Positions 34,731 to 58,815 of a DNA stretch of 64,000 nucleotides are shown here, in pieces. Origin of the DNA: Ricinus communis (lineage: Eukaryota; Streptophyta; Magnoliopsida; Malpighiales; Euphorbiaceae). A model generated the notes under the pieces. The model saw only the letters and a list, made by a program, of their open reading frames with translations. It ran no database searches and was not told the DNA's origin. The first letter of the stretch is position 1; each line of letters starts with the position of its first letter. The stretch lies in assembly GCF_019578655.1 (NCBI RefSeq), contig NC_063264.1:18526429-18590428 (forward strand), written 5' to 3'. Position numbers and translations under genes: made by a program.

Positions 34731-35198
34731 TAATATTAACAAATATACCCCTCTTACGGGGTTCTTTTCTCATATTAAAAAATATACCACTTTTTTGGGG
34801 TTGTTTTCTAATTTTGAAAGATACACCCCTATTACGGGGTTGTTTTCTAATATTGACAAATATACCCCTCTTACGGGATTGTTTTGCTCTATTCATAAAT
34901 GTACCCTTCTTACGGGCTTAATTTCTAATATTGACAAATATATCCCTCTTAGGGAGTTGTTTTCTAATATTAACAAATATACCCCTCTTACGGGGTTCTT
35001 TTCTCATATTAAAAAATATACCACTTTTTTGGGGTTGTTTTCTAATTTTGAAAGATACACCCCTATTACGGGGTTGTTTTCTAATATTGACAAATATACC
35101 CCTCTTACGGGATTGTTTTGCTCTATTCATAAATGTACCCTTCTTACGGGCTTAATTTCTAATATTGACAAATATATCCCTCTTAGGGAGTTGTTTTC
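34731..35198. repeat. 234-bp tandem duplication (exactly six monomers)
   Basis: The segment from 34731 repeats from 34965 at an offset of exactly 234 bp (6 x 39), with very few differences. This keeps the frame, which is why an open frame of about 200 residues crosses it. Confidence 0.85.
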
Positions 35199-35344
35199 TA
35201 ATATTGACAAATATACCCCTCTTACGGGTTTGTTTTCTAATATTGACAAATAAACCTCTCTTACGGGATTGTTTTCTCATATTAAAAAATATACCACTTT
35301 TTTGGGGTTGTTTTCTCATCTTGAAAGATATACACCTATTACGT

Positions 35345-35915
35345 GATGATGCGGCTGACGGCAAGGTTAGGGAGTCCGGAGACATCGGCGGGGTCCTCGG
35401 GAAGAGTTATCTTTTCTGTTTAATAGCCCGCCCACCATTGAAACGACTCAGTCGGAGGTAGGGTCTAGCGGTTGGAAGAGCACCACACATCGCATTGTGT
35501 CCGGTGTGCCCCCAGCGGCCCATGAAAATTTAGAGGACCGAATGCAATCCACGCCCGGTCGTACTCATAACCGCATCAGGTCGTACTCATAACCGCATCA
35601 AGGTGAACAGGCTCTGGTCAATGGAACAATGTTGGCAAGGGAAGTCGACAAAATGGATCCATAACCTCGAGAAAAGGATTGGCTCTGAGGGCTGGGCCCG
35701 GGGGTCCTACTCCCGAACCCGTTGGCTGTCGGCGAATTGCTCGAGCTGCTCCCCCAGCGAACAGTCGACTCAGAACTGGTATGGACAAGGGGAATTCGAC
35801 TGTCTAATTAAAAAAAAGCATTGTGATGGTCCTTGCGGATGCTCACGCAATGTGATTTCTGCTTAGTGCTCTGAATGTCAAAGTGAAGAAGTTCAACCAA
35901 GCGTAGATAAACGAT

Positions 35916-35970
<55 letters not shown>

Positions 35971-36144
35971 TGCGCATGAATGGATTAATGAGATTGCCAC
36001 TATCCCTGTCTGCTATCAAGTGAAACCACAGCCAAAGGAATGGGCTTGGCAGAATCAGTAGGGAAAGAAGACCTTGTTGACCTTGTTGAGCAGCGAAACC
36101 ACTATCCCTGTCTGCTATCCAGCGAAACCACAGCCAAAGGATTG
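35345..36144 (+). rRNA. 26S rRNA gene fragment (degenerate, non-functional)
   Basis: Recognised from conserved plant 26S blocks in order: GACGGCAAGGTTAGGGAGTC, GAAGAGTTATCTTTTCTGTT, CGGTCGTACTCATAACCGC, AAAAGGATTGGCTCTGAGGG, CAGTCGACTCAGAACTGG, GCTCACGCAATGTGATTTCT, GACTCTCTTAAGGTAGCC, TGCCTCGTCATCTAATTAGT. It is a pseudogene fragment. Both gene ends are absent. A 25-bp block is duplicated at about 35552-35601. An expansion segment is deleted at about 35760. The block around CACTATCCCTGTCTGCTAT is duplicated (about 35998 and 36101). Most differences I recognise look like C-to-T or G-to-A changes. ORFs across it are accidental. Confidence 0.93.
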
Positions 36145-36483: not shown

Positions 36484-37957
36484 TGATGTGTGCTACTCGT
36501 GTTAGCTACAATCTAAGGCAGTGTACCTATCGATGCAGTCTAGCACTAATGGCGAGTATCAAGGTCGTATTCCTCGGGAAAGCGAAAGCCCAGAGTTACT
36601 CCTTTGTTCTTTGTTATATTAACCTAAAATGGATGATGAATAAATTCTAAACTAACTATTAACTACGAGCTAAGTTCTAAGGGAGATGCAGGAGTAATTG
36701 ATAAGTGAAATAATCAAGACAAGAAGACAAACCCAAAGGGAATCTAAACTAGTTGGCATCCGAACAAAAGATAAAGGATCAGTGAGTCTAATTATGCTAC
36801 CCGTGGACGAATTCTTAATCGAATTCGGTTTCTCTCTCGAGATAACCGAATTCCTAAACCTAATAACCTAAAGTTGGAATCTCTTCCTAACGATTGATTC
36901 TTAAATTAGCATTAAGCTTTAATCCGCCTCTATTAAGCTTTGTTAATTCTTAATCCGACTAGTTAATTATCCTTATCTCTAAGCGATTATTAACCAGTTC
37001 TTGTTATTCAAAGTTCCAATTGCCAAACGGATTTCTCAATCTCATAAAGCAATCTAAACATCACAATTCAACGTCTCATGAATAATGCATAATCTTATTA
37101 ATCACCGAAACAAGAAGAATACAAAACCAACTCAAACAATCCAACAATATAATATGAAGCCAACATAGTAAAGAAATCCCAATGGATTAAATCAGTCTAG
37201 CTAAACATGTTCATGTTTAAAACAATCTAGGAAATCAATTACAATGAAAGAATAATGAAAATAAAACATGTACACCCTTTTCTCTCGAATTGGATGAACG
37301 GCTCCAAATCCGGATCTACACTTTGATTAATCTCCTAAACGCCTCTTGAATTGCTCCACTCTGTTTTTGCACTCGGAATCTTACGATTCCGGGACGATTG
37401 TGTAGAAACCGAACCGGCCACTAGGGCTCAATGTCACTCTTTCTCCCCCTCTTAAGAAAAACTCATTTTTTCTTATATATTTAACTCGTACTGCGGCCGT
37501 GTTGAAGGCGTCTTTGATCGTGCAACCGAAGTCAAGCCGTCTTGGCTATGGATCTCACCAGTGAGGGTTTCACCACGGTAGTGTTCCTCCCCGTGTTGGC
37601 CACCACGGGCCGTGTTTCTCCCCGTGTTGGCCACCATGGGTCGTGCTGAAGGCCGTGGTGGCTACGGAAACCGTGCCCAAAGTGCCAATTTCAAGAATCA
37701 AAGCCAATGGTTGAGCACGGCCAGAGTCCAAGCCGTGCTCAATGTATGCATTGCGGGCTCTTGTCCGATCTTGATGAATTCTCGTCCGTTTCCGCACGTA
37801 TTGATCTATAATTGCTTAAACAACAATGATGGTCCTATAAATGTTCCTGAAATGCAAAAGAACATAAAACACGGGCGATCTGGGAATAAAAGCACAATAA
37901 TTGCTAAGAACATACGCAATAATATGCAAGCAAATATGTGTAAAACTATGCTCATCA
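36484..37957 (-). repeat. Element A 3' LTR
   Basis: Minus strand TGATGAGCATAG (37957) to CACACATCA (36484), about 1474 bp. The U3 part (37500-37760) is rich in CACGGCC/GGCCGTG words, including a local tandem repeat around CTCCCCGTGTTGGCCACCA. A TATATA core lies at about 37472-37481. It matches the 5' LTR closely except for a substituted patch around 37360-37410. Confidence 0.9.
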
Positions 37958-37997
37958 AATTACCCCACACTTAAGCTATTGCTTGTCCTCAAGCAAT
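37958..37997 (-). promoter_or_regulatory. Element A 3' PPT with upstream stem-loop
   Basis: The sense (minus) strand has the hairpin ATTGCTTGAGGACAAGCAAT (7-bp stem, loop GAGGAC), then AGCTTAAGTGTGGGGTAATT abutting the LTR. The purine-rich AAGTGTGGGG is the probable plus-strand primer. Equivalent modules sit before the LTRs of B (48934-48972), C (54661-54699) and D (43492-43531). Confidence 0.7.
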
Positions 37998-38559
37998 TAA
38001 CAACTCAACCCACAAAACTACAGTTAGCAATTCATTTCAGTTTATGCCCTTAGTCCACAACAGAGAGTATTCAACACATCTCAAAGGATACTCAATCATA
38101 AATCAAATTACAAATCATTAACAAAGAATGGAAATAATATTAATGCATGAGTAACTTAAATGACAACTCAACACCAACATCATGAACCAATGCCTCACAG
38201 GGATCACTCAAGTCGCTCAAAGTGTATATTAGGTAAATAACAAATCCCTCAAAGCAAATGCACAAGACCCGCTCACCATAAGCTTGCTTATAAATCATAT
38301 CTTGATCGTGAATAAGTAAATACCAAAATCAAAGGGTCTTTACCAAGGTTGTAATGGGGCTAGGGTAAAGGTACGGAGATTTGGACAGAAGTATGAAAAT
38401 GCTGGAATTCGTGCGATAAACAATATTATATGCTCAAAGGATTAAATGCCTAAGATCACGAAAAGAATCATTCACTAAAATCCCTACTTCATAGAATAAC
38501 GCTCGCAAATGCTCTAAATCCAATAAAAAGATAAATAATTAAAGAGATTTGTTTATTAT

Positions 38560-38565
38560 ATTTTT

Positions 38566-38597
<32 letters not shown>

Positions 38598-38608
38598 TTT
38601 TTTTTTGT
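38560..38608. repeat. (CTT)n and poly-T microsatellite
   Basis: A T-run, then about seven CTT units, then a second long T-run in the internal region of element A. On the sense strand of the element it reads as poly-A plus (AAG)n. Confidence 0.9.
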
Positions 38609-39446
38609 AAAGAAATGAACTAGCAGCTTATTAGCGTATACAACTCGAATAAACATAAAGAATAACAAATACAAATTGGATCAAGGGGAGCATTTAAAAT
38701 ATCAAAAAGATTTAGTGAATTTACCAACATAGCAACTAGCATTTTAATCCCACATAAAGTCGAACATATCACAGAAAGAAATTCCAGCATAAGGGTAAAG
38801 GAAAGATAAATGTAAAGAATGGTATAATTGAAGTGTATAGGTGTAGATTATGAAGAAAAGGTTAAGGCTCAAAAATTGGCTAACTAATGGAAACATAAGG
38901 TGGTAGGCTTTTGGTCAAATGCGGGAATCCTAAATCGCCCAAATCATCTCATGGTATTCACAATATTCATGTAACTTCAACACGCATTACAAAGCAAGTT
39001 CTAGAAGCAAAGTTAAGTACAATGCACACTCAAATAAGAAATATAAAGAGCATAAGCATAATGAATGCTCAACCGGCTCAAAATCTCACTTTCGGTGTGG
39101 TATTAGGTGCAGTTGGTTCGCAACATCATTAATTGAATCATTATTTAAGAAACACATGCATATGATATTATCAACGTTCTAAGTTAAAATTCGACAATTC
39201 GAAAAACAATTAAATAACACCGGTTTAACCCGTGAGGGTTGATGTGTAAAACACCATAAATTGTTTTCCAAGGACAATGAACAACAAAGAAAAGTAACTA
39301 CAATTCTATAAATCAAGTCATCAATCGGCTCAAAATTAGCATACTCAAGTGCATAAAAACACAATGTCCTAACATCTCCTAAAAATACACAACACCTAGC
39401 CATAGCAATTAAAAATCCATATGAGAGATTAGGGTTTACCCATAAG

Positions 39447-39481
39447 CACCCCACACTTGAAGAACACACTGTCCTCGGTGT
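39447..39481 (-). promoter_or_regulatory. Internal PPT-like motif with stem-loop (element A)
   Basis: The sense strand has ACACCGAGGACAGTGT (imperfect hairpin, loop GAGGAC), a short spacer, then TTCAAGTGTGGGGTG. It mirrors the module at the 3' LTR about 1.5 kb downstream. Matching copies occur in B (50317-50352) and C (53363-53397). Confidence 0.6.
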
Positions 39482-39781
39482 AAAATGTTATGGATACCCC
39501 GCATGGAATGCTCAACTAAGAGAACAAAAGCAATACAATCCAAGTGCATGACATGTATGAAAAATAAAGTAAATAAATACGGAAAAATAAAAGATCTAGG
39601 GATCACGATCATCCATCGAGGGCCGATGTTGTGGAAATTCAGTGCCTCCTCGGTAGAATCTGAAAATAATAAAATAAAGAAATAAAATCAAAACTGAAAA
39701 TATGAAAACTAAAACTAATAAAATGTTTCAAAACAAAAAGGTAAAAAAAAAAAAAAAAATTAGAAATTAAAGATAAAAATT

Positions 39782-40993
39782 GGGGTGCCTCCCAAAAGCG
39801 CTTCTTTTGATGTGATGAGTCTTCTTACCGGACTCATGGTGAAAGGCAAATGGGCGTGATCGACGACCATCCATTCTTCTTCCAAGCAAATGGCTTCAAG
39901 TATCCGCTTAGAGGGATAATCGTCAATGTCCTCTTCCGACTATCAAGCAAGTCGCCGGTATGATGGGCAAGACTAGCTCCTCGTATAATTGCATGTAGTC
40001 ATGATGCTCTAGGGGCTCTTCCAATTTGAAAGTCAAGTTTCACCAATTGGAAGGATTGACGGTTGGGCAATTTCTTCAGAACGTCAATGGTTTCCTCTAG
40101 TCCTTGTCTTGGTTCACTTGCTAGAAGAAACTCGAGCTCCTCCAAGACTTCTTCATTGGATAACTCATGCTCATCTTCCATCATCGAACGGACTTATGGA
40201 AAATCCACCAAAAATTCCTCTAATCGCAACTCGGCATCATCAATCACATTCCAGTTGGTAGTCTTTCGGAGGGATTATGTTTGCCTCTTCCTTTCCGGTT
40301 CCATCTCTATGTTCAAGAAATCGTCCCGCACATAAGCATCATCGTCAAACATAATAGATAAACCGGAAAAATTCTCACTGAGCATAAAGTGACGGCTGAA
40401 ATGTTCCTCGGATTCGATGGCGTTTGATAGAGTTCTCGATTGCTCTTCGAGCTAGTAACTTGAAGATTAAGCCTACTTGATGCTCTATGTTATTAATCGA
40501 GGCTTGTTGATCTTCAAGTATCCTCTGTTTGTTGGAATCTATCATCAAGACTTGTAATGAACCTCATCATCGGCTCTCCAACACTAACTCTTCATCTTGA
40601 GTTGAAGGTGCAAGAGTAGGCCGATGTGGTTGCTTGAGATTCGGTGGTTCTAGGCCATCTAAGCTCCATCCATAGGGTGACCGAGTACTCCACTCTTGAT
40701 TATAGGTGCTTCCATACGAGTCACTTGGCCAATTGCCCGTATAATTCACATTCACAGTTATAAGAATAAGGAGTAAAATCGTTGCACAATGGACAATCAT
40801 TACTCAAATGTAAACCACAACAAAATTCATAAAAGACTTGAGATGAAAGGATAGGAGAAGAGAGTTGATCGGTAGCCCCCATAAACGATTCCACTCGAGC
40901 ATCTAAAGATGCACGGGCATCCCAATTTTTAGCACTCTCTTGGTTCCTATTCTCATTTTCCAATGCGTCATACAAAGATTTTGAGTTTAGCAT
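39782..40993 (-). pseudogene. Degenerate Athila-like gag remnant
   Basis: The best frame starts at 40993 (MLNSKSLYDALENENRN) and runs 90 residues. Residues 55-67 (YEFCCGLHLSNDC) look like a gag zinc knuckle of CX2CX3HX4C type with the first Cys replaced by Tyr. Frames then shift. A segment near 40460 (EHQVGLIFKLLAREQ) recalls the helix region after the knuckle in Athila gag. A second open piece is at 39999-40184 (MMEDEHELSNEEVLEELEFL). The region ends near AAAAGAAGCGCTTTTGGGAG, a block also seen in element C. Assignment to Athila gag is by recognition and is moderate. Confidence 0.55.
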
Positions 40994-41160
40994 TGAACCT
41001 CCTTATCATTCACTATCTGAATCATAAACTTAAGCTAAATAAATATGTACAAATAAAATAAAATAGATAAACAAATAAAAATAAAAATCATAAAATAATA
41101 AGAAAGAAAAAAAAAATGGCTAAATTAACAAATAGCAAATTTCACTCTAGTTTTCAAACA

Positions 41161-41180
41161 GATCCCCGGCAACGGCGCAA
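41161..41180 (-). promoter_or_regulatory. Primer binding site for tRNA-Asp (element A)
   Basis: The minus strand reads TGCGCCGTTGCCGGGGATC starting 8 bp inside the 5' LTR edge. It is complementary to the 3' end of plant tRNA-Asp (…GATCCCCGGCAACGGCGCCA) apart from one missing G. It primes minus-strand DNA synthesis and fixes the element's orientation as minus. Confidence 0.88.
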
Positions 41181-41186
41181 AAAACT

Positions 41187-42681
41187 TGATGTGTGCTACT
41201 CGTGTTAGCTACAATCTAAGGCAGTGTACCTATCGATGCAGTCTAGCACTAATGGCGAGTATCAAGGTCGTATTCCTCGGGAAAGCGAAAGCCTAGAGTT
41301 ACTCCTTTGTTCTTTGTTATATTAACCTAAAATGGATGATGAATAAATTCTAAACTAACTATTAACTACGAGCTAAGTTCTAAGCGAGATGCAGGAGTAA
41401 TTGATAAGTGAAATAATCAAGACAAGAAGACAAACCCAAAGGGAATCTAAACTAGTTGGCATCCGAACAAAAGATAAAGGATCAGTGAGTCTAATTATGC
41501 TACCCGTGGACGAATTCTTAATCGAATTCGGTTTCTCTCTCGAGATAACCGAATTCCTAAACCTAATAACCTAAAGTTGGAATCTCTTCCTAACGATTGA
41601 TTCTTAAATTAGCATTAAGCTTTAATCCGCCTCTATTAAGCTTTGTTAATTCTTAATCCGACTAGTTAATTATCCTTATCTCTAAGCGATTATTAACCAG
41701 TTCTTGTTATTTAAAGTTCCAATTGCCAAACGGATTTCTCAATCTCATAAAGCAATCTAAACATCACAATTCACAACGTCTCATGAATAATGCATAATCT
41801 TATTAATCACCGAAAACAAGAAGAATACAAAACCAACTCAAACAATCCAACAATATAATATGAAGCCAACATAGTAAAGAAATCCCAATGGATTAAATCA
41901 GTCTAGCTAAACATGTTCATGTTTAAAACAATCTAGGAAATCAATTACAATGAAAGAATAATGAAAATAAAACATGTACACCCTTTTCTCTCGAATTGGA
42001 TGAACAGCTCCAAATCCGGATCTACACTTTGATTAATCTCCTAAACCGCCTCTTGAATTGCTCCCTCTTGTTTTCTCGGAATCTTACGATTAAGGATTCT
42101 TACTCAGTAACTCTCTACTTTTCGATTATGTGCGAAACCGAACCAGCCACTAGGGCTCAATGTCACTCTTTCTCCCCCTCTTAAGAAAAACTCATTTTTT
42201 CTTATATATTTAACTCAGCACGGCCGTGTTGAAGGCCGTCTTGTCGGCCGAAGTCCAAGCCGTCTTTGGCTGTGGATCTCACCAAGTAGGGTTTCACCAC
42301 GGCCGTGTTCCTCCCCGTGTTGGCCACCACGGGCCGTGTTTCTCCCCGTGTTGGCCACCACGGGCCGTGCTGAAGGCCGTGGTGGCTACGGAAACCGTGC
42401 CCAAAGTGCCAATTTCAAGAATCAAAGCCAATGGTTGAGCACAGCCAGAGTCCAGGCCGTGCTCAATGTATGCATTGCGGGCTCTTGTCCGATCTTGATG
42501 AATTCTCGTCCGTTTCCGCACGTATTGATCTATAATTGCTTAAACAACGATGATGGTCCTATAAATGTTCCTGAAATGCAAAAGAACATAAAACACGGGC
42601 GATCTGGGAATAAAAGTACAATAATTGCTAAGAACATACGCAATAATATGCAAGCAAATATGTGTAAAACTATGCTCATCA
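41187..42681 (-). repeat. Element A 5' LTR
   Basis: Minus strand from TGATGAGCATAG (42681) to CACACATCA (41187), 1495 bp. It includes CACGGCC-rich U3 (42215-42480), a TATATA-type core at about 42201-42211 and the conserved 3' end with GCATCGATAGGTACACTGCC. The AATAC target duplication follows at 42682-42686. Confidence 0.92.
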
Positions 42682-42686
42682 AATAC

Positions 42687-43491
42687 AAAACTAACTCAGA
42701 CAATCCAACAATATAACATTAGGCCAACATAGTAAAGAAATCCCAATGGATTTAATCAATCTAGCTAAACATGTTCATTATCAAAACCTACAAGAATTCA
42801 ATTACAACAATGAGTAAAGGTAGAGAAACCCGATTATACCCTTGGATGAGAGTAAACAGCCCCAATTCCTCTTGCTCGAATTGAATCGATTCTTGTTCCT
42901 CTTGCTCGATTTCAAAACCAATCAACGAACCTCGCCCAATCTTCAATCTTTGAAGGGATTCCAATTTAAACCTTTGTCCAAGTCTCCTTTTTCCTTGGTT
43001 CCAACTCAGAAAACCCTTAGAGAGAGAAAAATTAGGGTTTGGGACGTTCTCCCCTGCTCTTCTCTTTCTTTCCTCTCTTCTTTCTTTTAATTAATTCCCC
43101 CTATCGCCGCCAACACAGCCGTGTTGATGCCCGTGTTCCCAACACGGGCTAGTGTTTATGCCCGTGTTACTCTCTATGGCCTTGCTCCCTAAATACTTCT
43201 TTTTCTTTGATGTTTGATGCACCCAACACAGCCATGTTGGTGCCCGTGTTGGGAACACGGCTAGTGTTGAAACCAACACGGCCATGTTCAGCTTCCTCAT
43301 GCGCATACTTAGCTTGTTTCGGCAGCTTTGACGTCCAATTATGCTCCAATTCTTCCCTTTATCATTCTTTGACTTCTTTTGAACCTAATGCACACAAACA
43401 AATGCATATGGTGAGTGGGACCAATTCACATCCAAATGTCCATAAAATATATATATATATATATTTAGATGTGTGTATTTTATGCATATCA
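42687..43491 (-). repeat. Element D LTR, proximal part
   Basis: Continuation of the LTR at 36145-36483 after element A (42682-42686 is the target duplication). On the minus strand the LTR starts TGATATGCATAAAATACACAC at 43491. The U3 has CACGG-type words (43110-43290) and an (AT)n run at about 43448-43466. A partial second copy of this LTR start lies at 44393-44757. Confidence 0.8.
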
Positions 43492-44392
43492 AATAACCCC
43501 ACACTTAGCTCATTGCTTGTCCTCAAGCAATCAAAAGTAAAATAAGGAAAATAAACCACTAAAGAACTACACTTAAACTGACAGACAAGCTAGAGAGCTC
43601 CTGCACATATCCTTAACAAGCGTAAGTCAAACAAAAAGAAACGAAGCAATCAATTCGAGTATCACAACCAAAATGCCAATAATTCGCAAAATACTGCCTC
43701 AATAAAATTATTCAGAACCAACTCCTCACCATATTCACTCTAAATCACTCAAAGTGTTTAAAGGGTAGTGTTTAATCGCTCAATGCATCAACTACTGCCT
43801 TACTTACTATTTGCTTGCTCTTAAATCCTACTCCTACCACTTATAGAGAGTCAACAACCATGTCAAGAGGTCTTTATAAGGGTTGTAATGGGGATCAGGT
43901 AGGGGTAGGTAAATTTGGTAAGAGTTGAACCTATGGTGTTCTGCAATGAAATACATGACCTACACACAAGCCACAATGATCACAAGGGGTAAGCAATGGA
44001 CAGTAGTCCAAGGTGGGAAATAGGAATCAAGTCAAAATGTTTAGCTCACTTACTTTCTTTCTTTTCATCACCTTTCCCTCTTATTCTTCTATTTATTTTT
44101 TTTCTTTTTTCCTTTTTTTCATAAGGGAAGAACATTCACATAATAGAGTGAATTTCTTTTAGATTGAAGAAAGCTGCTATAAGATTCCACACAATTCCCA
44201 AGACAAAAATTCCCAATAAAAACAACTCATGTGCAGAATCATAACCCAAAGCAAAATAAAACTAAGTGGCAATGAAATATGATAAAAATGGTGAAAGAGG
44301 GGGTTATCTATAGAATCAATAAATGAATGAAGGCTACTTGGCTGGAATGAAAAACCTAAGTGCCTCTATCATACCATAGTGTTAAACTCTCC
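43492..44392 (-). mobile_element. Element D internal remnant (3' UTR and PPT only)
   Basis: From the LTR edge outward: PPT AGCTAAGTGTGGGGTTATT (minus), stem-loop ATTGCTTGAGGACAAGCAAT (43512-43531), a degenerate version of the conserved palindrome (43808-43823) and the GGTTGTAATGGGG block (43881-43893). The remnant ends at about 44389, at AACACTATGG, the point where the internal stem-loop starts in B. No coding region is left. Confidence 0.75.
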
Positions 44393-44757
44393 TTGTGTTC
44401 CTAACATGGGCTAGTGTTTATGCCTGTGTTACTCTTTGTGGTCGTGCTCCCTAAATACTTCTTTTTCTTTGATGTTTGATGCACCCAACACGGCTGTGTT
44501 GGTGCCCGTGTTGGGAACACGGCCAGTGTTGAAACCAACACGGCCATGTTCAGCTTCCTCATGCGCATACTTAGCTGGTTTCGGCAGCTTTGACGTCCAA
44601 TTATGCTCCAATTCTTCCTTTTATCATTCTTTGACTTCTTTTGAACCTAATGCACACATACAGACGCATAAGGTGAGTGTTGGGACCAATTCACATCAAA
44701 TGTCTGTAAAATCAATTTTAAAAACCCCATTTAGATGTGTGTATTTTACGCACATCA
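44393..44757 (-). repeat. Element D 5' LTR fragment (start of U3 only)
   Basis: Near-copy of 43130-43491 with TGATGTGCGTAAAATACACAC at the outer end (44757). The shared core carries the words AACACGGC and GTGTTGGGAACACGG. The rest of the 5' LTR and nearly all the body were deleted, leaving U3 joined to the 3' UTR. Confidence 0.8.
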
Positions 44758-45125
44758 CAGCGCGCTCGTCGGACGAGTTGGGGAGGAATCCTCGCATGCC
44801 AGCCCCCCATTGCTGAGGAAAAGCGCCCATCAAGCCCATTGGCGAGAATCCTTGCACGCCAGCCAGCGCGCCCGTCTAGCCAGTTGGCAAGGAATCGTCA
44901 CGTGCTAGCCCCCTATTACTGAGCAACGTGCCCATCGGGCCTGTTGGCAAGAATCCTCGTAGGCGCGGGCCCATTTGCAGCGCATCCTCGCAGCCTAGCG
45001 CGTGTGTTGGCCAACATCCTCTCAGCCTAGGGCGCGCGTTGGCAGAGCATCCTTGCACGCGTGGGCCTATTGGCAGCGCATCCTCACAGCTCCATCGTGC
45101 ACTGGGCGTGCCAGCCCGAGGGGGC
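44758..45125. repeat. GC-rich degenerate tandem repeats
   Basis: Much more GC-rich than its surroundings. Words such as GCGCGCCCGTCTAGCC, TTGGCAAGAATCCTCG, GCACGCCAGCC and TTGGCAGCGCATCCTC recur. 44758-44865 and 44866-44970 look like two diverged units of about 108 bp, followed by shorter units. The ORFs across it on both strands are probably accidental. Not recognised. Confidence 0.6.
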
Positions 45126-45983
45126 AATAATCGTTGGCTGTGAACCTCTGTTGGTGAGAAATCAGCTACAGCGAACCTCTATTGGCTACTTTTCGGGCTC
45201 ATGCTGCAACACTCCGCCACCACCATATTTGGTGCCTCCACACCCTTTTCCTAAAAATCTATTAGCCCTAATATATTCTAGGGAGCCTAGAAAGGTTGTA
45301 AAATTCTTATGAAATCAAGAGGATCATTGAATGCTAAGTTTGCTACTTTGTTGTCTATTGTAGCCCGATCACAACATGCGAAGTAGCCATTTAAGCTAAT
45401 ATCTCACAAGTTGAGCGTGCACTTTTAAAGAAAATGTACCAATGATAACTCCAATAATTTTGACATATTTTCTAAGGGCCCTCCACAAAAATGGTGATTT
45501 GTTTATGTAAATTCTAATTTTATGAATTTCTCAATTTTTAATATTTAAAAAATAAAAAATATACTAAATGTGCTCAAAAAATTTTAAAATTTTTTTGGTG
45601 GTTTATTATATTATTCTTAACATATGTGCAAACAATCAAATTTAAATTCCTTGAAATGAATTTTTTAAGGGGGGTCTGATGGGTGGGACATAGTGATATC
45701 TCCTCCTGATAGACTTCAACATGCTTCTTAGCCTCCTAAGGGGGTGCAGTATGCCTCACTCCCCTTGGGGGGCTGGGGAGCCAAGGCACGGGGGCATGTC
45801 TGGGCTGCAAGATAGGCATTGATATCCATGGAATTGGCCCACAAACACCCTAACCCCCTCCGGCCCGTCTCGGATGTCAGAAAATTTCTCGGGACACGGT
45901 GGGCCCACCACAGGGGCATCGCCCTTGCTTTAGGCATACATGGGGCTTTATTTTCTTATTGTAGGTGAGGCATCAAGGTGTTG
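45126..45983. other. Unrecognised intergenic or repeat-derived DNA
   Basis: The first part is AT-rich (45330-45660). The second is a C/G-rich stretch (45665-45960) with GGGGGGCTGGGGAG and CACGGTGGGCCCACCAC. It ends at the outer edge of element B's 3' LTR (45984). No domain, RNA gene or known repeat was identified. Confidence 0.5.
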
Positions 45984-48933
45984 TGATGGGCTACTTATGC
46001 AACCTACACCTAAGGCAGTGAACCTATCGATGCGACATAGCAGTAGTGAGTATCAAGGTCATATCCCTAGAGATCGGGTGAACCTAGAGTTACTACTGTT
46101 GACTATGTTATCTAGTATGAAATAGAGTGTGAGAAGTCTAAATTAACTAACTAATGATTTTGAATGCAAATAAATGAATAAACAGCAACTGACAATCGAA
46201 ACACAACCGCAGCAAGAGAAATAAACCCAAAGGGGACCTAAGTGATGGAATTCTAAAGGTTGATTTTATAAGTTACCAATCTTACTTATCCGTGCCTAAA
46301 TCCTTAATCGAACTCGGTTCCTCTCTCGAGCTCACCGACTTCCTAAACCTGCACTAACCTAATGGAATCTCTTCCTATCAGATTATTATAGATTAGCATT
46401 AAGCGTGATTTAGATGTATTTATAGTTGTTAATTCTTAATCCGGTGAGTGAAATAACCTTATCTCTAAGTGTTAACTATCATTTCTTACTATTCAAATTC
46501 TTGTTGTAACAAGCATTTCTCAATGTCAAGAAACAACCCAAAAGATAATTAATTCAACGTCTCAAATTAACTGAATCAAACTTTATTACTGAATAGCAAA
46601 AAGATTACAAGAATGACAATTACAAATCTAACAACTAAGCACAATCCATCAACAATAAAGACCCCAATGGGTTCAAAAGATCTAGCTACTCATGTTCATA
46701 GTTAAAGCAAAATAAGGAATAAATAAGGAAAAGAAAATTGAAGGCATGTACACCCTTCTCTTTCAAGTTGGATGAGAAACCCTAATTTTCCAATCCAAAA
46801 TATCAAACCCTAATTTGCCTCTTGAATGCTCCCAAATATTGTTTTGATCTTCAAATCGATGTTGAAAACAAGTGTAATCCTCCCTGAATTGATGAATTTG
46901 ATATCCAAAAGTCGACAATTGAGATCTAGAAAACAAATGAATTGAGTGTATATTGGAATTAGGTCAGGAAAATTGAGCCACCACTCACCAAATCGAATTT
47001 TGCCTATATAGTCTCTTCAAAGACACGGTAGTGGTTAAGCCTCATGCTAGTCGGCTGAGTCCAGCCGTACGAACCTAAGGGTTCCATTGTGTTGACCTCT
47101 TCCAGGCCGTGCCCAAGCTGGTGCTGAGCCACCACGAGCCATGGTGGAGGTCGTGGTGGCTACAGAAACAGTGCCAAAAGGCACTCTTGGAGGGCAGCTA
47201 ATTGGCAATTCAGCACGGCCCGAGTCCAAGCCGTGCTCAACTCTCGGGGTGCTAGTTGATGAGCATAGTTTTACACATATTTGCTTGCATATTATTGCGT
47301 ATGTTCTTAGTAATTATTGTGCTTTTATTCCCAGATCACCCGTGTTTTGTGTTCTTTTGCATTTCAGGAACATTTATAGGACCGTCATCGGTGTTTAAGC
47401 AATTATAGGTCAATACGTGTGGAAACGGACGAGAATTCATCAATATCAGATAAGAGCCCGCAATGCATACATTGAGCACGGCCTGGACTCTGGCCGTGCT
47501 CAACCATTGGCTTTGATTCTTGAAATTTGCACTTTGGGCACGGTTTTTGTAGCCACCACAGCCTTCAGCATGGCCCGTGGTGGCCAACACGGGGAGAAAC
47601 ACGGCCGTGGTGAAACCCTACTTGGTGAGATCAACAGTTTTAGCACGGCCTGGACTTCGGCCGTGCTGACCAGCATGGCCTTGAACACGGCCGTGTTGAG
47701 TTAAATATATAAGAAAAATGAATTTTTCTTAGAGAAGGAGGGGGGGGGGAGAGTGACATATAGCCCTGGCGGCTGGTTCGGTTTTTACACAGTATTGAGT
47801 GCAAGAGAGAGTTGCGGTGAGTAAGAATCCCGGAATCGCAAGGTTCCGAGTGCAAAATAGTAGTGGAGTAATTCAAGAGGCAGTTTGGGAGATTAATCAA
47901 AGTGTAGATCCAGATTTGGAGCTGTTCATCCAATTCGAGAGAAAAGGGTGTACATGTTTTATTTTCATTATTCTTTCATTGTAATTGATTTCCTAGATTG
48001 TTTTAAACATGAACATGTTTAGCTAGACTGATTTAATCCATTGGGATTTCTTTACTATGTTGGCTTGATATTATATTGTTGGATTGTTTGAGTTGGTTTT
48101 GTATTCTTCTTGTTTTCAGTATTAATAAGATAATCATTATTCATGAGACGTTGTGAATTGTGTGTTTAGATTGCTTTGTGTGATTGAGAAGTCCATTTGG
48201 CAATTAGAATTTTGAATAGCAAGAACTGGTTAATAATCGCTTAGAGATAAGGATAATTAACTAGCCAGATTAAGAATTAACAAAGCTTAATAGAGGCGGA
48301 TTAAAGCTTAATGCTAATTTAAGAATCAATCGTTAGGAAGAGATTCCAACTTTAGGTTATTAGGTTTAGGAATTCGGTTATCTCGAGAGAGAAACCGAAT
48401 TCGGTTAAGAATTCGTTCACGGGTAGCATAATTAGACTCACCGATCCTTTATCTTTTGTTTGGTTGTCAACTAGTTTAGATTCCCTTTGGGTTTGTCTTC
48501 TTGCCTTGATTATTTCATTTATCAATTACTCCTGCGTCTCCCTTAGTACTTAGCTTGTAGCTATTAGTTAGTTTAGAATTTATTTATCGCTAATTTTAGG
48601 TTAATATAACAAAGAACAAAGGAGTAACTCTGGGCTTTCACTTTTCCGAGGAATACGACCTTGATACTCGCCATTAGTGCTAGACTGCATCGATAGGTAC
48701 ACTGCCTTAGATTGTAGCTAACACGAGTAGCACCCATCACTAGTCCTCATCCAATTTGATGGATTCTAGTCCGTAATCACGCGTATTTCCCTCGATTGTT
48801 GATAGTGTCATTCGAAAATGACCTGAAACGTGAAAGGAAATAAAAGACAGGTGATTCTAGCATAAAACGAGATAATCATGAACAAAAATGTAAACAATTG
48901 GGAATGAAAACATGTGTAGTATGATGCCTATCA
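45984..48933 (-). repeat. Element B 3' LTR (interrupted)
   Basis: Minus strand from TGATAGGCATCATAC (48933) to AGCCCATCA (45984). Without the nested solo LTR it is about 1462 bp (45984-47256 plus 48745-48933). The 3' end shares GCATCGATAGGTTCACTGCC with element C. The U3 again carries CACGGCC words (47205-47240). The base-adjacent TGTTG at 45979-45983 would be one half of its target duplication; the other is not in the window. Confidence 0.82.
47257..48739 (+). mobile_element. Solo LTR of family A
   Basis: A single 1483-bp LTR, TGATGAGCATAG to AGCACCCATCA, in plus orientation. It is bordered by a perfect 5-bp duplication CTAGT (47252-47256 and 48740-48744). No internal DNA, PBS or PPT adjoins it, so it is a solo LTR left by recombination between two LTRs. 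A TATA-like core (AAATATATAAG) is at 47703-47713. It sits inside the LTR of element B and is therefore younger than B. Confidence 0.95.
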
Positions 48934-50577
48934 AATCACCTCACACTTAAGCTTTTGCTTGTCCTCAAGCAATCAACAACTCACTCCTCAAACAGATACC
49001 AAATAACTCAATCAAATACTTCGCAGGAAGTTAGCTCAAAAAAAATCTCAAAACTCCGTAATGAATTTCCCCAAAATCCCCAAATCACTAAATCCTTAAG
49101 AGAGAGAACAAAGTTAATAAAACTGCTAAAATTAAAATGATAAACCATTCAAACTGAGAAATTGAGAACCATGCCTCACAAGATGTCACTCGAAACACAC
49201 AAGTGTATATAGGTGAAAGAAGATCGACAAGCTCTCAATGCAAAAATACAGAAAAAAGTGCTTACCATAAGCTTGCTTATAGATCTAATCTCCACTACTG
49301 TGAAATAATCAATAATCATGATCAAAGGGTCTTAAGCCAGGTTGTAATGGGGTTAAGGTAGGGTATGGAGAAATATGGAAAGTAGGCTAAAAGTTGCTCG
49401 AAAATTATGCAAGTAGTGCAAGAAAATAGCCAAGGATCAAATGCTGTACCAAAAATGAACACTAAGTTGCTCCAACAATAAGATGATGCTCGAAATGAAC
49501 TAAAAGAATACTAAATTCGCTTCTTTTTGTTTTTGATATATACTACGTATATATATTACAACAGATTATGTAGGAGCTATTGTGGTTATTGACACAAATA
49601 ATAAGAATGAATATCCAATTTTGGATTGAAGGGAGCATCTATGAAAAATCTAGCAACTTAGTGATTATATATAAAAAGAATGCAATTTGATCCAAAATGA
49701 AATGCAACATAAACTTACATAATTTCCAACAATAATGGTAGAAAGAATGGTAAAATAAATAGAAGTGATAAAATGAGTTTCAAAGGTGAATTACAATGAA
49801 AGAAAAGGCTAAGGCTCAAAATTGGTTCACTATGGGAAGAACTGGGTTAGGCTTTTGGCCAAATTATGTAAATCCTAAGTGCCCAAATCATCTCATGACT
49901 ATCAACAATTCATGTAATCTTAAAAGGAATCAAAAAGCAAGTTCTAGAAACAAAGATTCTGTACAATGCTTACTAAACAACAACGAAAGGAGCATAAAAT
50001 AATAATGATGCCCAATTTGGCTCAAAACCTCACCATTTGAGTGGGTTAAAATTGCATGAATTTTCAAACCAAAGTTTAAACAATCAATCATAATAATAAG
50101 CAACAATATTAACAGTGTTCTATTTCCAAGATAAAGTAAAATGGAAAAATTAGGGAAAAACACCAGTTTTACCTGGCTCGATTGAAATTAAGAGATTCAT
50201 TCATTTCCTTCTTCTAACAAGATTCAATAAAAGCTATAAGGGTATCTATTCAAAAGAGCAAAATCATCAACTACTCAATTGAAACAAAACTCAAGATAAT
50301 AACAAACTAAGGTACCTACCCCACACTTGAGTATAACACTGTCCATAGTGTTAAAAAGATTAAAACTAGGTTATCCTCACTGCTTGGACATCATAGTTAT
50401 TGAAGATCATGCTTAGTTTTCAAATTGGGAAAGCATAGTGTTCTACTAAAATAACTTAACATAAAAAAAATGAAAGGAAATAACATAAAATTAAGCATAT
50501 AAAAAGCAAGAAAACAAAATAAATGAAAGAAAATAAAAAGAAAAAGGAAAAAAGAAAAGTTGCATAATTTTTTCTGC
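48934..50577 (-). other. Element B 3' UTR with PPT, stem-loops and conserved blocks
   Basis: Non-coding. From the LTR outward: PPT GCTTAAGTGTGAGGTGATT with hairpin TTGCTTGAGGACAAGCAA (48955-48972), palindrome ATAAGC-TT-GCTTAT (49267-49280), block GGTTGTAATGGGG (49340-49352), and the internal PPT-like motif CAAGTGTGGGGTA with hairpin AACACT-ATGGAC-AGTGTT (50317-50352, sense strand). A-rich runs lie at 50460-50560. The short ORFs are not credible genes. Confidence 0.75.
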
Positions 50578-52066
50578 TAGGAGTCTGCTAATGGCGTATC
50601 CTCACTGCTTGGACTTGTTTGAAGATGAGGAGCAGGGGGCTGCGGTGGATCAGGGTCTGTGAAGCAGCCTGCCAGATCGAACTCCATCTCGTCAATGAGC
50701 CGCTGATTTTGTGCTCTAGCGTCCATCAATTTTTTTCATCTGCTCCACTAAGAAGTCTGTCTGGGTGGCCTGCCTCTCCAACCTATTCATAAGCTGCTAA
50801 AGCGCGGTGTTCATTCTACCAAGCTGTGCCCTAGTCTCCTCTTGAAACTGCGCAAATTGAGTATGGTGCTGCTGCTGTAGATTGCAGACTCGATCTAGTC
50901 ATTCAGCCAAAGCACTAATCTGAGCACTCGATGTCCCTGCAGAATAAGAGGATGAGGTTCTAGATGGAGGCATAAAAACTCTAGCTGGGTTGGGAATCCT
51001 AACATCCGAGATCCCAGCCGACGATGCCTCTCTAGCCTCCCTGACTATTATCTTCATAAGCCTATACTCTATACCATGTGGGTGTCTAGTAGCTGTGATC
51101 ATCTGCATGTTGATCATCTGTCTAATCCCTAGTAGTGTCATGTCACCAATATTTGAAAGCTCTGACAGACAATCGTCCAATACATCTAGTCTCTTGGCTA
51201 ACCTAGTCACGTACAGGCCAAAAAAATAATGCATCTTCTTCTGGGCATCTACTATAAATGGTCGGACTTGACGAGCCAACAAATATCCCAAGTCCAACTT
51301 CTTCTGATGTTGCATAGCCCAGAGGATGAAGACATCAGTATGTGTTACCACTCCAAAACTATCTTCTCTGCCTGTAATGGTGTAAGCTAATAGGGTATAG
51401 AGATAGCGGAGATGATTCGGAAGGCTAGATGCCTTAGACCTACTTGGGTAGTACGTTTCTAGCCTAAGTACCAATGAGTCCTACATGGTGTCGTAGGATA
51501 TTAGGTTGATGTAGAGGCATCCTTAATACTCCTCCTCTGAGAGCTCCTGCTCAGTCCATAATCCCAAATGCATGCCGAATTGTGGGACTGACATTGAGAA
51601 CTCCCTTCCCCCAAGTCTGAAATAAACCGATTGTCGATGCCGCCAGGATCTGTCAGAGGAAGAAGGTGTTGAGGAACTCAATTGTAAGCTCACGGTAGGT
51701 TGGCTGAATGATGTCAAAGAATCGCGCATATAGTAGAGTCTCGAACAGAGTGCACACATCCTGAACCAATCACACTCTTTCTAGGGATACGAAGTCGATG
51801 CAACGACCCGCCATCACTTGCTTCCATCTCATGACTTGGAACTGACTCTCATTTTCTGCATTAGGGAATGTCCATAATGGATGACGACCAGATGCAGGTG
51901 GGTTCACAGCTGGTGCTCTTTGAGCTCGGACTAGTTGCTATTGCGGTGCTGAGGCTGGTGCTGGTGCTGGTGCTGGTGCTGTGGAGGAAGATGTTCCTTC
52001 GCCACGTGATCGCTTGCCTGTAGGGACGCGTTTGGCTTGCTTCCTATAGGATTGATCGCGGTCCAT
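50578..52066 (-). pseudogene. ATHILA ORF-1-like (env-position) pseudogene
   Basis: The likely start is the ATG at 52066 (MDRDQSYRKQAKRVPTGKR), followed by an Ala-Pro repeat from a TGGTGC microsatellite (about 51951-51981), then a plant-specific domain. Open pieces are 51523-51759 (YFRLGGREFSMSVPQFG) and 50899-51474 (NHLRYLYTLLAYTITGRED, TRLAKRLDVLDDCLSEL). A Gln-rich helical tail follows to a stop at 50578. In-frame stops (near 51943, 51776 and 50898) and at least two frameshifts inactivate it. The (F/Y)xLGGREFSMS signature matches the ATHILA ORF-1 family (PF03078) from memory. Its place between pol and 3' LTR is where Athila elements carry their env-like gene. Function is unproven. Confidence 0.75.
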
Positions 52067-52420
52067 CAAATTAACTGATGCAATGAATCATTAGTTATTC
52101 GTACAAGAAATCAAGTTAATAAAAATCCTACTGAAAATTGGACAGCATAATAGTTATGATTCGACTAATAGAAAACTTTAGACTTAACAAAAGACTAAAG
52201 TCTCAATCTCCTGCATAAACTAATTAACCGATACATTCCAACCTACTTTATCATGCACCAACTAACGCAACTTTATTCTAGAAATTATTCATAATAGAAT
52301 GCCATAAACAAACTTCATTTCTGCAAACCCCACACTTATCATTTTCATAATCAACTTCACAGCAAACATAACAACTAATGTAAAATAAATCTAATTAAGG
52401 CAATATTAAAGCAGTGTAAC

Positions 52421-52728
52421 TGATGTAGATGATTCTATGCATATTTATTGATTGTTTATCAATCGTTTATTCATGTATTTGAGTCATATTTATTCCTGTT
52501 TGATCGCATTTTGGTATGTTTCTAAGATTTTTAGGTTTTCGGACTCATTGATGAGAAATTGATTAATTTTCGAGCAGAAACCAAGCTATATGGATGATTT
52601 ACGCATATTAGATGTTTGTCTGAGTCGATTCCTTGATTAGCGCGCAATTTGAGGCCTTCGCACGAGCAATTACACGGCCATGTACATTTGCACGGGCCAT
52701 GGCACGGGCAAGGGCACTTCTGCCTATA
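52421..52728 (+). repeat. Element C 5' LTR fragment
   Basis: Starts TGATGTAGATGATTCTATGC and aligns with 54700-55044 (same order, GTGTTTATCAATCGTTTATTC-like segment, CACGG words, CTATAAGTA). Similarity ends just after the CTATAAGTA core at about 52720. The rest of the 5' LTR is deleted. Confidence 0.85.
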
Positions 52729-54660
52729 AGTAATTGCAAGTTTGTTTTTGACAGGTTATTTAGCCGGAATTCGGAGTGGATGAATGGACATCCCAAATCG
52801 GTGCAGAGAGCACCTCCTTGGTCATCTACCACAAACATCGGACCTTCTCATTGCGCTTATATGCCTCGAGCCCCAACTTACTTTGAGCCCACCTTCCCAA
52901 TTTGCCCGCGATGCAAGAATGCGGTTGCAGAGTCCAGCTAGACGACTCGAATAAAAAGAAGCGCCGTCGGGAGGCATTCCCGAATCTATTTATGCTTTTT
53001 GAATTTTTGGACATCTTTTTATTTATGTAGTTATTTTCTTTAGTTAGATACTTCAGTTTTTTTTAGTTTGTTTTATTTTGAGGAGATTTTATTTTATTGA
53101 ACCTTTTACTAGATGTTGCTTGGGATGTGTTTATTCTTGAGTTTTGTAGGAGTTAGCTTACTCGATGCTCATATGTAATTTTGAGGACTAACATATTTTG
53201 GAGTGTTAAAGCACATATTAAGGGCAGTATCTAGTAGACTTTCTAGCTTTTATCTCTTTCTATTGTCTTGTTTTTCTTTTAGTTTTCCTGTTTTTTTTGT
53301 GGACTCCCATAATTTGCTTCTTTGTGCGTAATTTATTTCTTTTTAGAGTGCCTACCTTGTTCACACTGAGGACAGTGTTTTTCTCAAGTGTGGAGTAGGT
53401 ACCTTATTTTTGTGCAGGTACCAATTTTGTTTTTGTTGTTTTTATCTTGCTTTCATTTCCCTTATTGATTGAGTCCATTCATTGTTACTGTCCTTATCTT
53501 GAGTTTTTCTTTAATCAAGTAGTTGATAATTTTTCTGTTTTGAATGGATACCAGTATAGCTTTTTATCGAATCTTATTAAAAGAAGGCAATGAACGAATC
53601 TCTTAATTTTACTTTATCTCGGATATAGAACACTGTTAATATTGATGCTTATTAGATTGTTTAATTGTTTAAACTTTGGTTTGAGAATTCATGCAATTTT
53701 ATCCCACTCAAATGGTAAGGCTTTTATGCTCATTCTGTTTTTGATTAGTGAGCATTGTGCAGAATTTTTGCTTCTAGAACTTGCTTTGTGATGACTTTTG
53801 AGATTACATGAATTTTTGATAGTCATGAGATGATTTGGGCACTTAGGAATTACATAATTTGGCCAAAAGCCTAACCTTGTTTTTCCCTTAGTGAACCCAT
53901 TTTGAGCCTTAGCCTTTTACTTTCATTGTAATTTACCTCTGACACTCATTTTATCACTTCTATTCATTCTACCATTATTGCTGGAAATTATGTACGTTTA
54001 TGCTGCATTTCATTTTGGATCAATTTGTATATACTCACTAAGTTACTAGATTTTTCGTAGATGGTACATATCATTTGACTACTTTGATTGAGCATTGTAT
54101 TACTTCATCCTACGTTATCTGTTGTTGCAGGATTAAAAAAATAATAATTTCGAGCATCATCTTATTATTAGAGCAACTTAGTGTTCAATTTTAGTACAAC
54201 ATTTGATCCTTGGCTATATTCTTTACCTGCAGAATTTTCCAGCAACTTTCAGCTCACTTTCCATATTTCTCCGTACCCTACCTTAACCCCATTACAACCT
54301 GGCTCAAGACCCTTTGATCATGTTTATTGACTATTTCACAGTGGTGGAAATCGGATCTATAAGCAAGCTTATGGTAAGCACCTTTTATTGTACTTTTGCG
54401 TTGAGAGCTTGATGGTATTCTTTCACTTATATACACTTGTGTGTTTTGAGTGACATCTTGTAAGGCATGGTTCTCTCAGTTTCGAAGGTTTATCATTTTA
54501 ATTTTAGCATCTTTATTAACTTTGTTCTCTGTCTTAAGGACTTAGTGATTTGGGGATTTTAAGGAAATTCGTCACGGAGTTTTGAGACTTGTTTTGAGCT
54601 AACCTCCTGCAAAGTATTTGATTGAGTTATTTGGTATATGTTTCAGGAGTGAGTTGTTGA
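52729..54660 (+). other. Element C internal 3' region
   Basis: 52729-52941 contains an open frame ending ICPRCKNAVAESS, perhaps the tail of an element ORF (not recognised). It is followed by the block AAAAGAAGCGCCGTCGGGAG, homologous to element A at 39782-39812. After that it is non-coding: internal hairpin ACACTGAGGACAGTGT (53363-53378) with TCAAGTGTGGAGTA (53384-53397), block ACCCCATTACAACCT (about 54287-54301) and palindrome ATAAGC-AA-GCTTAT (54359-54372). Confidence 0.65.
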
Positions 54661-54699
54661 TTGCTTGAGGACAAGCAAACGCTTAAGTGTGGGGTATTT
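54661..54699 (+). promoter_or_regulatory. Element C 3' PPT with stem-loop
   Basis: Hairpin TTGCTTGAGGACAAGCAA (54661-54678), then GCTTAAGTGTGGGGTATTT directly before the LTR start at 54700. Probable plus-strand primer site, with the same arrangement as in A, B and D. Confidence 0.75.
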
Positions 54700-56839: not shown

Positions 56840-58815
56840 TCAACCCTCCTGTGCATATAAAGCCAGGTCAACTAGTTGCTCACCATCCAACGAGTTACCA
56901 TGGTAAAGCTTCAACCGACAGCCATTTACTTTAAAATCTCCCTTCTCGGGATGATGCAACTCCACTACTCCATATGGAAAGACCTGTCTGACCTGAAATG
57001 GTCCAAACCACCGACTTTGCAGCTTTCCAGGAAACGGATGAAGGTAAGAGTTGTATAGCAACACTCGATCCCCAATTTGAAACTCCTTATACGTATGAAT
57101 CCTTTGATCATACCATTTCTTCATCCTTGCTTTGTAAGTTAACGAGTTTTCATACGCCTGATGGCGCCACTCATCTAGCTTACCCAGCTGCCACTGTCGC
57201 TTCTTACTTGCAGAATCAATATCAAAGTTACAAGTCCTAAGGGCCCAAAGTGCCCTATGCTCTAACTCAAAAGGCAAATGACATGACTTTCCATAAACAA
57301 GGCGATAGGGCATAAAACCTATAGATGTCCTAAAAGTAGTCCTAAACGCCCACAATGCATCATCCAACTTAAGAGCCCAATCTTTCCTACTGGTACTAAT
57401 GGTTCTCTCTAAAATACACTTAATACCCCTATTAGTTACCTCAACCTGACTACTAGTCTGGGGGTGATAGGGAGTAGAGAACCGCTGAGTAACCCCTACC
57501 GCTTAAGTACCTTCTCTAATTGGGCATTGCAAAAATGTGTTCCTCTATCACTAATAAGCGGCCTAGGTGTGCCAAACCTAGCAAACAATCGCTTAAGGAA
57601 CCTACAAACAACCCTGGCATCATCAGTGGCCACAGCCTGAGCTTCCGGCCACTTAGAGAAGTATTCAACAGTAACCAAAATATTCTTATTACCATATGAA
57701 GAGGGAAAGGGTCCCATGAAGTCGATGCCCCAAACATCAAAAATCTCAACAACTTGCATACTAGTTTGGGGCATCTCATCATGAGAAGAAATATTACCTA
57801 CCCGCTGATAAGCATCACAAACCTGAATGAATTTCCGTGTGTCTTGGAAGAGCATAGGCCAATAGAATCCTGCCTCTAACACCTTCCTTGCTGTATGGTT
57901 TGCTACTTGATGACCTCTAGTGGGTCCCTCATGGCAGTGCTTCAATATTTGGAGGGTCTATTCGCCATAAATACAACAGTGAATCACCTGATTTGCACAC
58001 ACTCTAAACAGAAAGGGGTCTTCCCAAATGTAGTATTTCAAATCAGCAAAGAATTTCTGCTTTTGCTGATAAGTCATACCCTTTGGTAGAACCCTAGCAA
58101 CCAAATAGTTGGCATAATCTAAAAATCAGGGAGTATCAGTATATACCTGAGTGACATATAAATGCTCCTCTAGAAATCGATCGTCTATGGCCATCTCATC
58201 AAGTGCATCCAAGTGAGGATTCTCCAATCTCGATAAATGGTCCACTGCCAGATTCTCCGTGCCCTTCTTATCCTTGATCTCGACATCAAATTCCTGCAAC
58301 AAAAGAATCCACTAAATCAATCTCGGTTTTGCATCATTTTTTAGGATTAAGTACCTGAATGTCGAGTGGTCCGTGAAGACAATGGTCTTGGAGAAATGAG
58401 GTACGATCTAAACTTGTCGAAGGCGTAAACAACAGCCAACAACTCCTTCTCCGTGGTGGTGTAGTGCTCCTGGGCTCCTGTCAAAATCTTGCTAGCATAA
58501 TAAATGGGTTGGAACTTCTTTCAATCCTATGTCCAAGCATATCTCAAACTCAGATAATCACTAGCATCGCACATCACCAGGTAGCCCCCAATCAGTGAAA
58601 CCATGATCGGGCCGTAGTCAGTTTTTAAGTAACTCAAAAGCGAGCCAAGCATGCATCATTAGAAACAAAAGGTACATCCTTAACTAACAACCGAGTAAGA
58701 GGCCTAGCAATCTTAGAGAAATCTCTAATAAATCTCCTATAAAACCCCTGCATGGCCTAGAAAACTCCTAACTACCTTAATGTGAACTAGAAGGAGGTAA
58801 CTTTCAAGGCCCTCC
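56840..58815 (-). pseudogene. Athila-like pol pseudogene: RT end, RNase H, integrase
   Basis: In coding order: RT tail (FYRRFIRDFSKIARPLTRLL, about 58690-58750); RNase H (HYTTTEKELLAVVYAF about 58450, then [20 protein letters not shown] about 58230); zinc region (ARKVLEAGFYWPMLFQDTRK, 57850-57945); integrase core (57370-57945: WGIDFMGPFPSS, ISDRGTHFCN, QTSSQVEVTNRG, giving D, D and E). Last is the C-terminal domain (56840-57367: FRTSIGFMPYRLVYGKSCHL, LHPFPGKLQSRWFGPFQV). It is broken by frameshifts near 57496 and 57950 and several stops. Upstream RT, protease and gag are lost at the junction with element E. The family assignment rests on the characteristic integrase C-terminus. Confidence 0.88.

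Follow-up and report, generated by a model that had tools for sequence, protein, structure and literature searches.

Several long terminal repeat (LTR) retrotransposons in a window of 64,000 nucleotides (nt) from the Ricinus communis genome (contig NC_063264.1, positions 18,526,429 to 18,590,428 of the forward strand) carry a compact module in which a short hairpin precedes a polypurine tract (PPT) at a fixed distance. The module often occurs twice per element, once next to the 3' LTR and once further upstream, and thousands of copies are found in the 315.5-Mb genome to which all genome-wide counts below refer. The reading that we favour, if tentatively, is that each module would serve to prime plus-strand DNA in Athila/Calypso-like Ty3/gypsy retrotransposons, with the upstream one providing a second start. 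How retroelements choose the right purine tract, and what the reason for extra tracts is, are questions that a compact module of fixed geometry makes testable with short RNAs; the module would also serve annotators as a marker of the 3' ends of these elements.

On the element strand the module opens with a left arm, continues with GAGGAC (slightly altered in some copies) and a right arm, and ends, after a spacer, in the tract AAGTGTGGGG or a one-change variant; the tract begins 12 nt past the end of GAGGAC, or 18 nt counted from its start. An earlier, sequence-only reading of this DNA had described seven such modules in four elements, A, B, C and D, and all seven are present where it placed them. 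The terminal hairpin TTGCTT-GAGGAC-AAGCAA is free of deviations in all four. In A (minus strand) it extends to ATTGCTT-GAGGAC-AAGCAAT (37978..37997) and is followed by the tract AAGTGTGGGG (37963..37972), TAATT and the 3' LTR (TGATG...); the same extended hairpin in D (43512..43531, minus strand) precedes a tract at 43497..43506. The terminal hairpins of B (48955..48972, minus strand) and C (54661..54678, plus strand) are followed by AAGTGTGAGG (48939..48948) and AAGTGTGGGG (54685..54694), respectively, and the distance from terminal tract to LTR is 5 nt in A-D. Upstream, the stems of B (ACACT-ATGGAC-AGTGT, extended to AACACT-ATGGAC-AGTGTT at 50335..50352, minus strand) and C (ACACT-GAGGAC-AGTGT, 53363..53378, plus strand) are perfect, with the tracts AAGTGTGGGG at 50319..50328 and AAGTGTGGAG at 53386..53395. 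The stems given in the sequence-only reading are correct for these two and for every terminal hairpin; for the upstream hairpin of A it had ACACT/AGTGT, where the DNA reads ACACC-GAGGAC-AGTGT (39466..39481, minus strand) with a mismatched innermost stem pair, followed by AAGTGTGGGG at 39449..39458.

The same geometry is found well beyond the window. Measured from the start of the loop, the tract follows at 18 nt in 126 of 128 modules; the terminal set has 64 of 65 with this register, the upstream set 62 of 63. A more fitting description of the hairpin treats the outer G and C of GAGGAC as a closing stem pair, with AGGA alone as the loop: this pair is GC in 58/65 terminal and 51/63 upstream modules, and the full GAGGAC is seen in 54/65 terminal and 35/63 upstream loops.

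Genome-wide, GAGGAC-N4-20-AAGTGTGGGG has 2629 matches, compared with 0 for the reversed pattern, and AAGTGTGGGGT has 4127, compared with 61. A perfect 6-bp stem surrounds 49 of the 145 GAGGAC hexamers in the window and 80 loci (L001-L080), as against 724 when all 695,102 hexamers there are taken; kinship among the copies, and the choice of 13 loci for GAGGAC plus the tract, mean that these counts are not independent. Viral contigs gave no match to the strict module pattern and no relative of B's reverse transcriptase; the looser GAGGAC-N10-14-AAGTGTGGGG had 17 chance matches in this phage-type DNA, none with a stem of at least five of six pairs (the best had four). The excess of 2629 over 0, the stem enrichment and the viral-contig control together rule out a chance origin of the modules. 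Another tract, AAGTGGGGG, has nine matches, compared with four for the reversed control, and five of the nine resemble Athila-type modules with a shortened tract.

Spacing was sampled on the first 100 AAGTGTGGGGT sites listed, 62 of which make 31 same-strand pairs. The distance is 1277-1565 bases in 28 of these pairs and 2003-2072 bases in the other three, which combine the upstream tract with a third, hairpin-less tract described below. A hairpin with a GAGGAC-like loop and at least four of six pairs accompanies 87 of the 99 sampled sites in fetched loci, the remainder being six of the third-tract type and six that are neither. A partner scan that tolerated mutated copies returned 111 matches in 67 counted loci; with the sequence reversed, all 80 loci together gave eight. 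An upstream module missing from most intact copies would have told against the sequence-only reading; the scan found an upstream partner, 1.2-1.6 kb away, for 39 of the 46 terminal modules with a 5' flank of 1.7 kb or more, and a terminal partner for 37 of the 43 upstream modules with a 3' flank of 1.8 kb or more. In D, which has only ~0.9 kb between its LTR pieces, the upstream module is absent, as would be understandable if D is the deletion copy that it appears to be.

Other families in the same genome have both modules, 0.93-1.4 kb apart, with different stems. Their upstream stems are (T)GACATT/AATGTC(A), AAGACATT/AATGTCTA, GACACATT/AATGTGTC, ATACATT/AATGTAT and AACATT/GATGTT, and their terminal stems are TTTACTT/AAGTAAA or again TTGCTT/AAGCAA. 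Covariation was measured on 62 distinct upstream and 38 distinct terminal rows, with 500 shuffles and slid versions of the stem as controls. Pairing in the upstream stem holds in 86.7% of cells (77.7% when shuffled), and its covariation score of 0.307 (shuffled, 0.160; best slid version, 0.114) was reached by none of the 500 shuffles; one pair takes six forms (UG, AU, CG, GC, GU and UA). The terminal stem scores 0.159 (shuffled, 0.120; best slid version, 0.100), a value reached by four of the 500, and shows matched changes from GC to AU at one pair and from AU to UA at the outermost. We regard this covariation as good evidence for the predicted upstream stem and as moderate evidence for the terminal one. 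In 20 short stretches picked by their right arm, the stems mostly differ from that of a family by one broken pair at a time, which is what dead copies would show; it is between families that the matched changes fall. The sequence-only reading had taken a different stem around the same loop as the mark of a selected fold; the argument is weak on seven copies alone and is carried by the comparison between families, where covariation is clear upstream and modest at the terminal copy. Selection on the fold is likewise supported by the constant register and by the retention of the upstream module. The two modules are alike in loop, tract and spacing, and this would also fit a relic: the junction of tract and LTR would have been duplicated long ago, and the upstream copy kept since then by descent without function, possibly marking the site where the 3' spacer was inserted. 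Such an origin appears unlikely given that matched changes occur at the upstream stem, the more variable of the two, that most copies have the upstream module (39 of 46), and that it is retained across families whose spacers share little DNA similarity.

In the priming mechanism that we favour, the AAGTGTGGGG tract would be the RNase H-resistant primer, and the hairpin, 12 nt 5' of it, would fold in the genomic RNA and help reverse transcriptase and RNase H to set the primer end. The terminal unit would start the DNA strand destined to become the integrated end, and the upstream unit, situated after the coding blocks, would be a second plus-strand start. Two priming units are favoured by the shared tract core, by the agreement of the next base, and by the position of the terminal copy, where the plus-strand primer must be. 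A second plus-strand start, which the sequence-only reading had proposed alongside RNA packaging and 3'-end processing, would also fit the extra PPT published for Athila4 and Calypso (PMC2829016). The base after AAGTGTGGGG is identical in both modules of an element in 52 of 55 pairs, 45 of them T/T in the related families A-D, and outside these families seven of eight pairs agree (six G/G, one A/A); the same core and the same next base are as expected if one enzyme uses both tracts. The hairpin may further serve as a ruler at which reverse transcriptase pauses: from the base of a stem of 6 bp to the 3' end of GGGG there are 16 nt, close to the distance between polymerase and RNase H. In HIV-1 the distance between these two sites is about 18. 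The two sites of the Ty3 enzyme are ~13 bp apart (PMC5371799; this and the papers cited below are used as far as their available text goes). For Ty1, the tract alone is described as insufficient, with a nearby structure possibly required, and the role of multiple PPTs is called unclear (PMC2829016).

A number of results weigh against this reading. Two of the five covariation measures fail, in that double-change pairs (3 vs 3.7 upstream, 2 vs 2.4 terminal) and further pair types (13 vs 13.9 upstream, 6 vs 6.7 terminal) do not beat the shuffles, and kinship of the rows can inflate the other three; independent lineages are few, and all come from a single genome. The agreement between the tracts could have arisen through gene conversion instead. 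Stem length varies from 5 to 9 bp, leaving the distance from hairpin base to tract inconstant and that from loop to tract constant, and this variation speaks against a strict pause-ruler. When 13 modules were folded alone, z ranged from -2.91 to +1.11, short folds being weak, and the best predicted fold contains the hairpin in nine modules and is another fold in four. Finally, B has a further AAGTGTGGGGTTT tract (AAGTGTGGGG followed by TTT; 52328..52337, minus strand), overlooked in the sequence-only reading, on the 5' side of the env-like open reading frame (ORF) and ~2.0 kb 5' of the upstream module; a GAGGAC-like hairpin was looked for at this third tract and none was seen.

Folding predictions also raise the idea of a switch, in which the left arm would pair either with the right arm, exposing the tract, or with the tract itself, hiding it. 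In upstream modules of the A, C and D type the best predicted fold joins the left arm to the tract at -12.3 to -15.9 kcal/mol, compared with -6.3 to -7.5 kcal/mol without the tract. Once the tract may pair, the energy falls by more than 0.5 kcal/mol in 48 of the 62 upstream modules and in half of the terminal ones (19 of 38). Left arm and tract can pair over at least five bases in 58 of 62 upstream modules (0.52 for random arms) and over at least six in 31 of 62 (random, 0.20), rows that are related copies of few families. The terminal modules reach at least five in 35 of 38 (random, 0.62), yet at least six in just three of 38 (random, 0.27); the plain hairpin stays the best fold of the upstream module in families B, X, Y and L062; and covariation is invisible for a pairing in which one partner, the tract, is invariant. 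As a universal feature the switch is unsupported, although upstream arms are somewhat more tract-complementary than random ones. We consider it improbable as an account of the modules and treat it as a possible lead at the level of families.

The modules are not confined to elements in which coding sequence for the polymerase is detectable. The upstream module comes after the coding blocks, whichever these are, and exists without pol; in other copies an env-like piece or integrase precedes it. When A was compared with B's reverse transcriptase, integrase and env-like pieces, no match was better than E = 0.36. In five A relatives (L040, L051, L052, L056 and L059) the primer binding site (PBS) lies 1642-1734 nt before the upstream tract, and no match to reverse transcriptase or integrase was found between the two; a reverse transcriptase match in L051 lies beyond the module, on the other side. 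The terminal module is present in L040, L052 and L059 and was not found in L051 and L056. Modules in copies without detectable reverse transcriptase and integrase point to a cis-acting signal. Such a signal could also be one for packaging or dimer maturation, the hairpins being Gag nucleocapsid binding sites beside the tracts with the purine-rich AGGA loop as the contact; the well-conserved loop suits this explanation, as do the A relatives, whose copies would need packaging signals. Packaging does not need the 18-nt coupling to the tract, and we judge this explanation to be rather unlikely. As an observation in its own right, A-related elements of this kind form a repeated family: the 5' half of A has full-length matches in L051, L052 and L056, a nearly full one in L060 and matches over a large part in L040 and L059, and L052 has an open ORF of 361 amino acids.

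The spacer between the two modules of A (38004..39446, minus strand) has a longest stop-free run of 88 codons and holds two blocks similar between families. A coding role of the spacer is unlikely, stop-free runs never exceeding 88 codons in nine spacers. That the modules flank a spacer which is mostly non-coding and follows the coding blocks would fit a signal that acts in the RNA on 3'-end formation, on stability or on export, unconnected with priming. A signal of this type leaves the coupling to a primer tract unexplained, and an Rfam search of 36000-56100 with E up to 1 gave no match at the modules and one ribosomal RNA (rRNA) fragment only; it is in our view a poor candidate. The two spacer blocks, 67-82% alike, are common to A, B, C, D and L062, while the rest of the spacer hardly aligns; families X and Y have almost no spacer similarity to these five. 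A second conserved motif, AAAAGAAGCGC or a near form, followed by a possible hairpin around GGGAGGCA, is found 282-418 nt before the upstream tract, with sites in the window at 39793 (minus strand) and 52969 (plus strand) and at 23 further loci. Its hairpin arms are mostly TTTTGGG/CCCCAA in A- and D-type loci and TCGGGA/TCCCGA in C, again different stems with one loop; this motif may be coding instead of structural.

Element A (36484..42681, minus strand) has LTRs that are 95.0% identical, a 5-bp target duplication (GTATT) and an internal region of ~3.2 kb. Its PBS, which presumably matches tRNA-Asp, begins a few nt past the LTR. The PBS of Calypso and Diaspora is reported ~5 bp from the LTR and complementary to tRNA-Asp (PMC1142308). 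Element B is interrupted by C and by a solo LTR, the latter apparently inside B's 3' LTR, and carries reverse transcriptase (61107..61709, minus strand; PF00078, RVT_1), integrase (57496..57945, minus strand; PF00665, rve, and PF17921) and a weak env-like ORF (50899..51474, minus strand; PF20167, 28.8 bits vs a cut-off of 45). Reverse transcriptase lies 5' of integrase on the element strand of B, the domain order of Ty3/gypsy, and the TG...CA LTRs read for A, C and the solo LTR, with 5-bp duplications (GTAAC for C, CTAGT for the solo LTR), are further features of this group. The Athila/Calypso trait of an additional PPT in the region from pol to the 3' LTR is present as well, and B has two such tracts. 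Hairpin-less third AAGTGTGGGGTTT tracts like that of B occur in L009, L011, L020, L036, L041 and L048; in L041 the tract is situated between integrase and the env-like piece. Pieces related to the env-like one of B, whose own PF20167 score is below the cut-off, were found in 17 of the 80 loci searched. Among the 120 relatives listed for B's reverse transcriptase, the few that have names come from plants, and two of these carry the name Ty3-G Gag-Pol.

The second PPT of HIV-1 and PPT2 of Ty1 lie within coding sequence, whereas the upstream tract described here lies beyond the coding blocks, at a distance of 0.9-1.6 kb from the terminal tract, and is paired with a hairpin. A second plus-strand start within the element would be the common trait (PMC2829016). 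Closest are Athila4 and Calypso, env-containing Ty3/gypsy elements in which one extra PPT follows pol and precedes the 3' LTR, a finding attributed to Wright and Voytas 2002 (PMC2829016). Unlike in that account, whose available text mentions no hairpin or paired module, both tracts here carry a covarying hairpin at a fixed distance, and the modules are also found in copies in which neither reverse transcriptase nor integrase is detectable. The Sireviruses, which belong to Ty1/copia, similarly have several identical PPTs near the 3' LTR, and a structure at the terminal one has been proposed to aid RNase H; there the octamer is AGGGGGAG, the inverted repeat flanks the PPT and extends into the LTR, and upstream PPTs are without the repeat (PMC2829016). 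Our elements do not show this arrangement with AGGGGGAG: the tract is AAGTGTGGGG and the hairpin lies entirely 5' of it, on both tracts. Bongo3 of the beet chromoviruses offers another duplicated PPT in a plant Ty3/gypsy element; its PPTa overlaps the gag-pol stop codon, and the available part of its account is without the terms 'hairpin', 'stem-loop' and 'inverted repeat' (PMC3605345). No hairpin beside an Athila-lineage PPT was found in the available text of PMC1142308, PMC11963269, PMC2829016, PMC6317226, PMC3605345, PMC7264820 and PMC5371799. The extra PPT itself is known; a fixed-geometry hairpin on each tract was not found in the literature searched, this search having covered few subscription papers, so that absence from it is no proof of novelty.

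A bolder possibility, which we put forward as speculative, is that the GAGGAC hairpin could predate the Athila lineage and serve plant Ty3/gypsy elements in general as a device for plus-strand priming. Its loop, register and tract would have persisted while matched changes altered the stems, and in some families it would in addition switch the upstream tract between a hidden and an exposed state. GAGGAC-N4-30-AGGGGGG, a pattern with a different tract type, has 181 matches in the genome, compared with 39 when reversed, counts based on loop and tract without left arms. A hairpin TGATTC-GAGGAC-GAATCA at L053:251 (minus strand) precedes a different purine-rich stretch and is possibly another lineage's version. 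Elsewhere in the window, a very long 39-bp satellite array, also readable with a period of 116 bp, occupies 1-25600 and 30034-35343 and ends beside a piece of eukaryotic large-subunit rRNA at 35224-36049.

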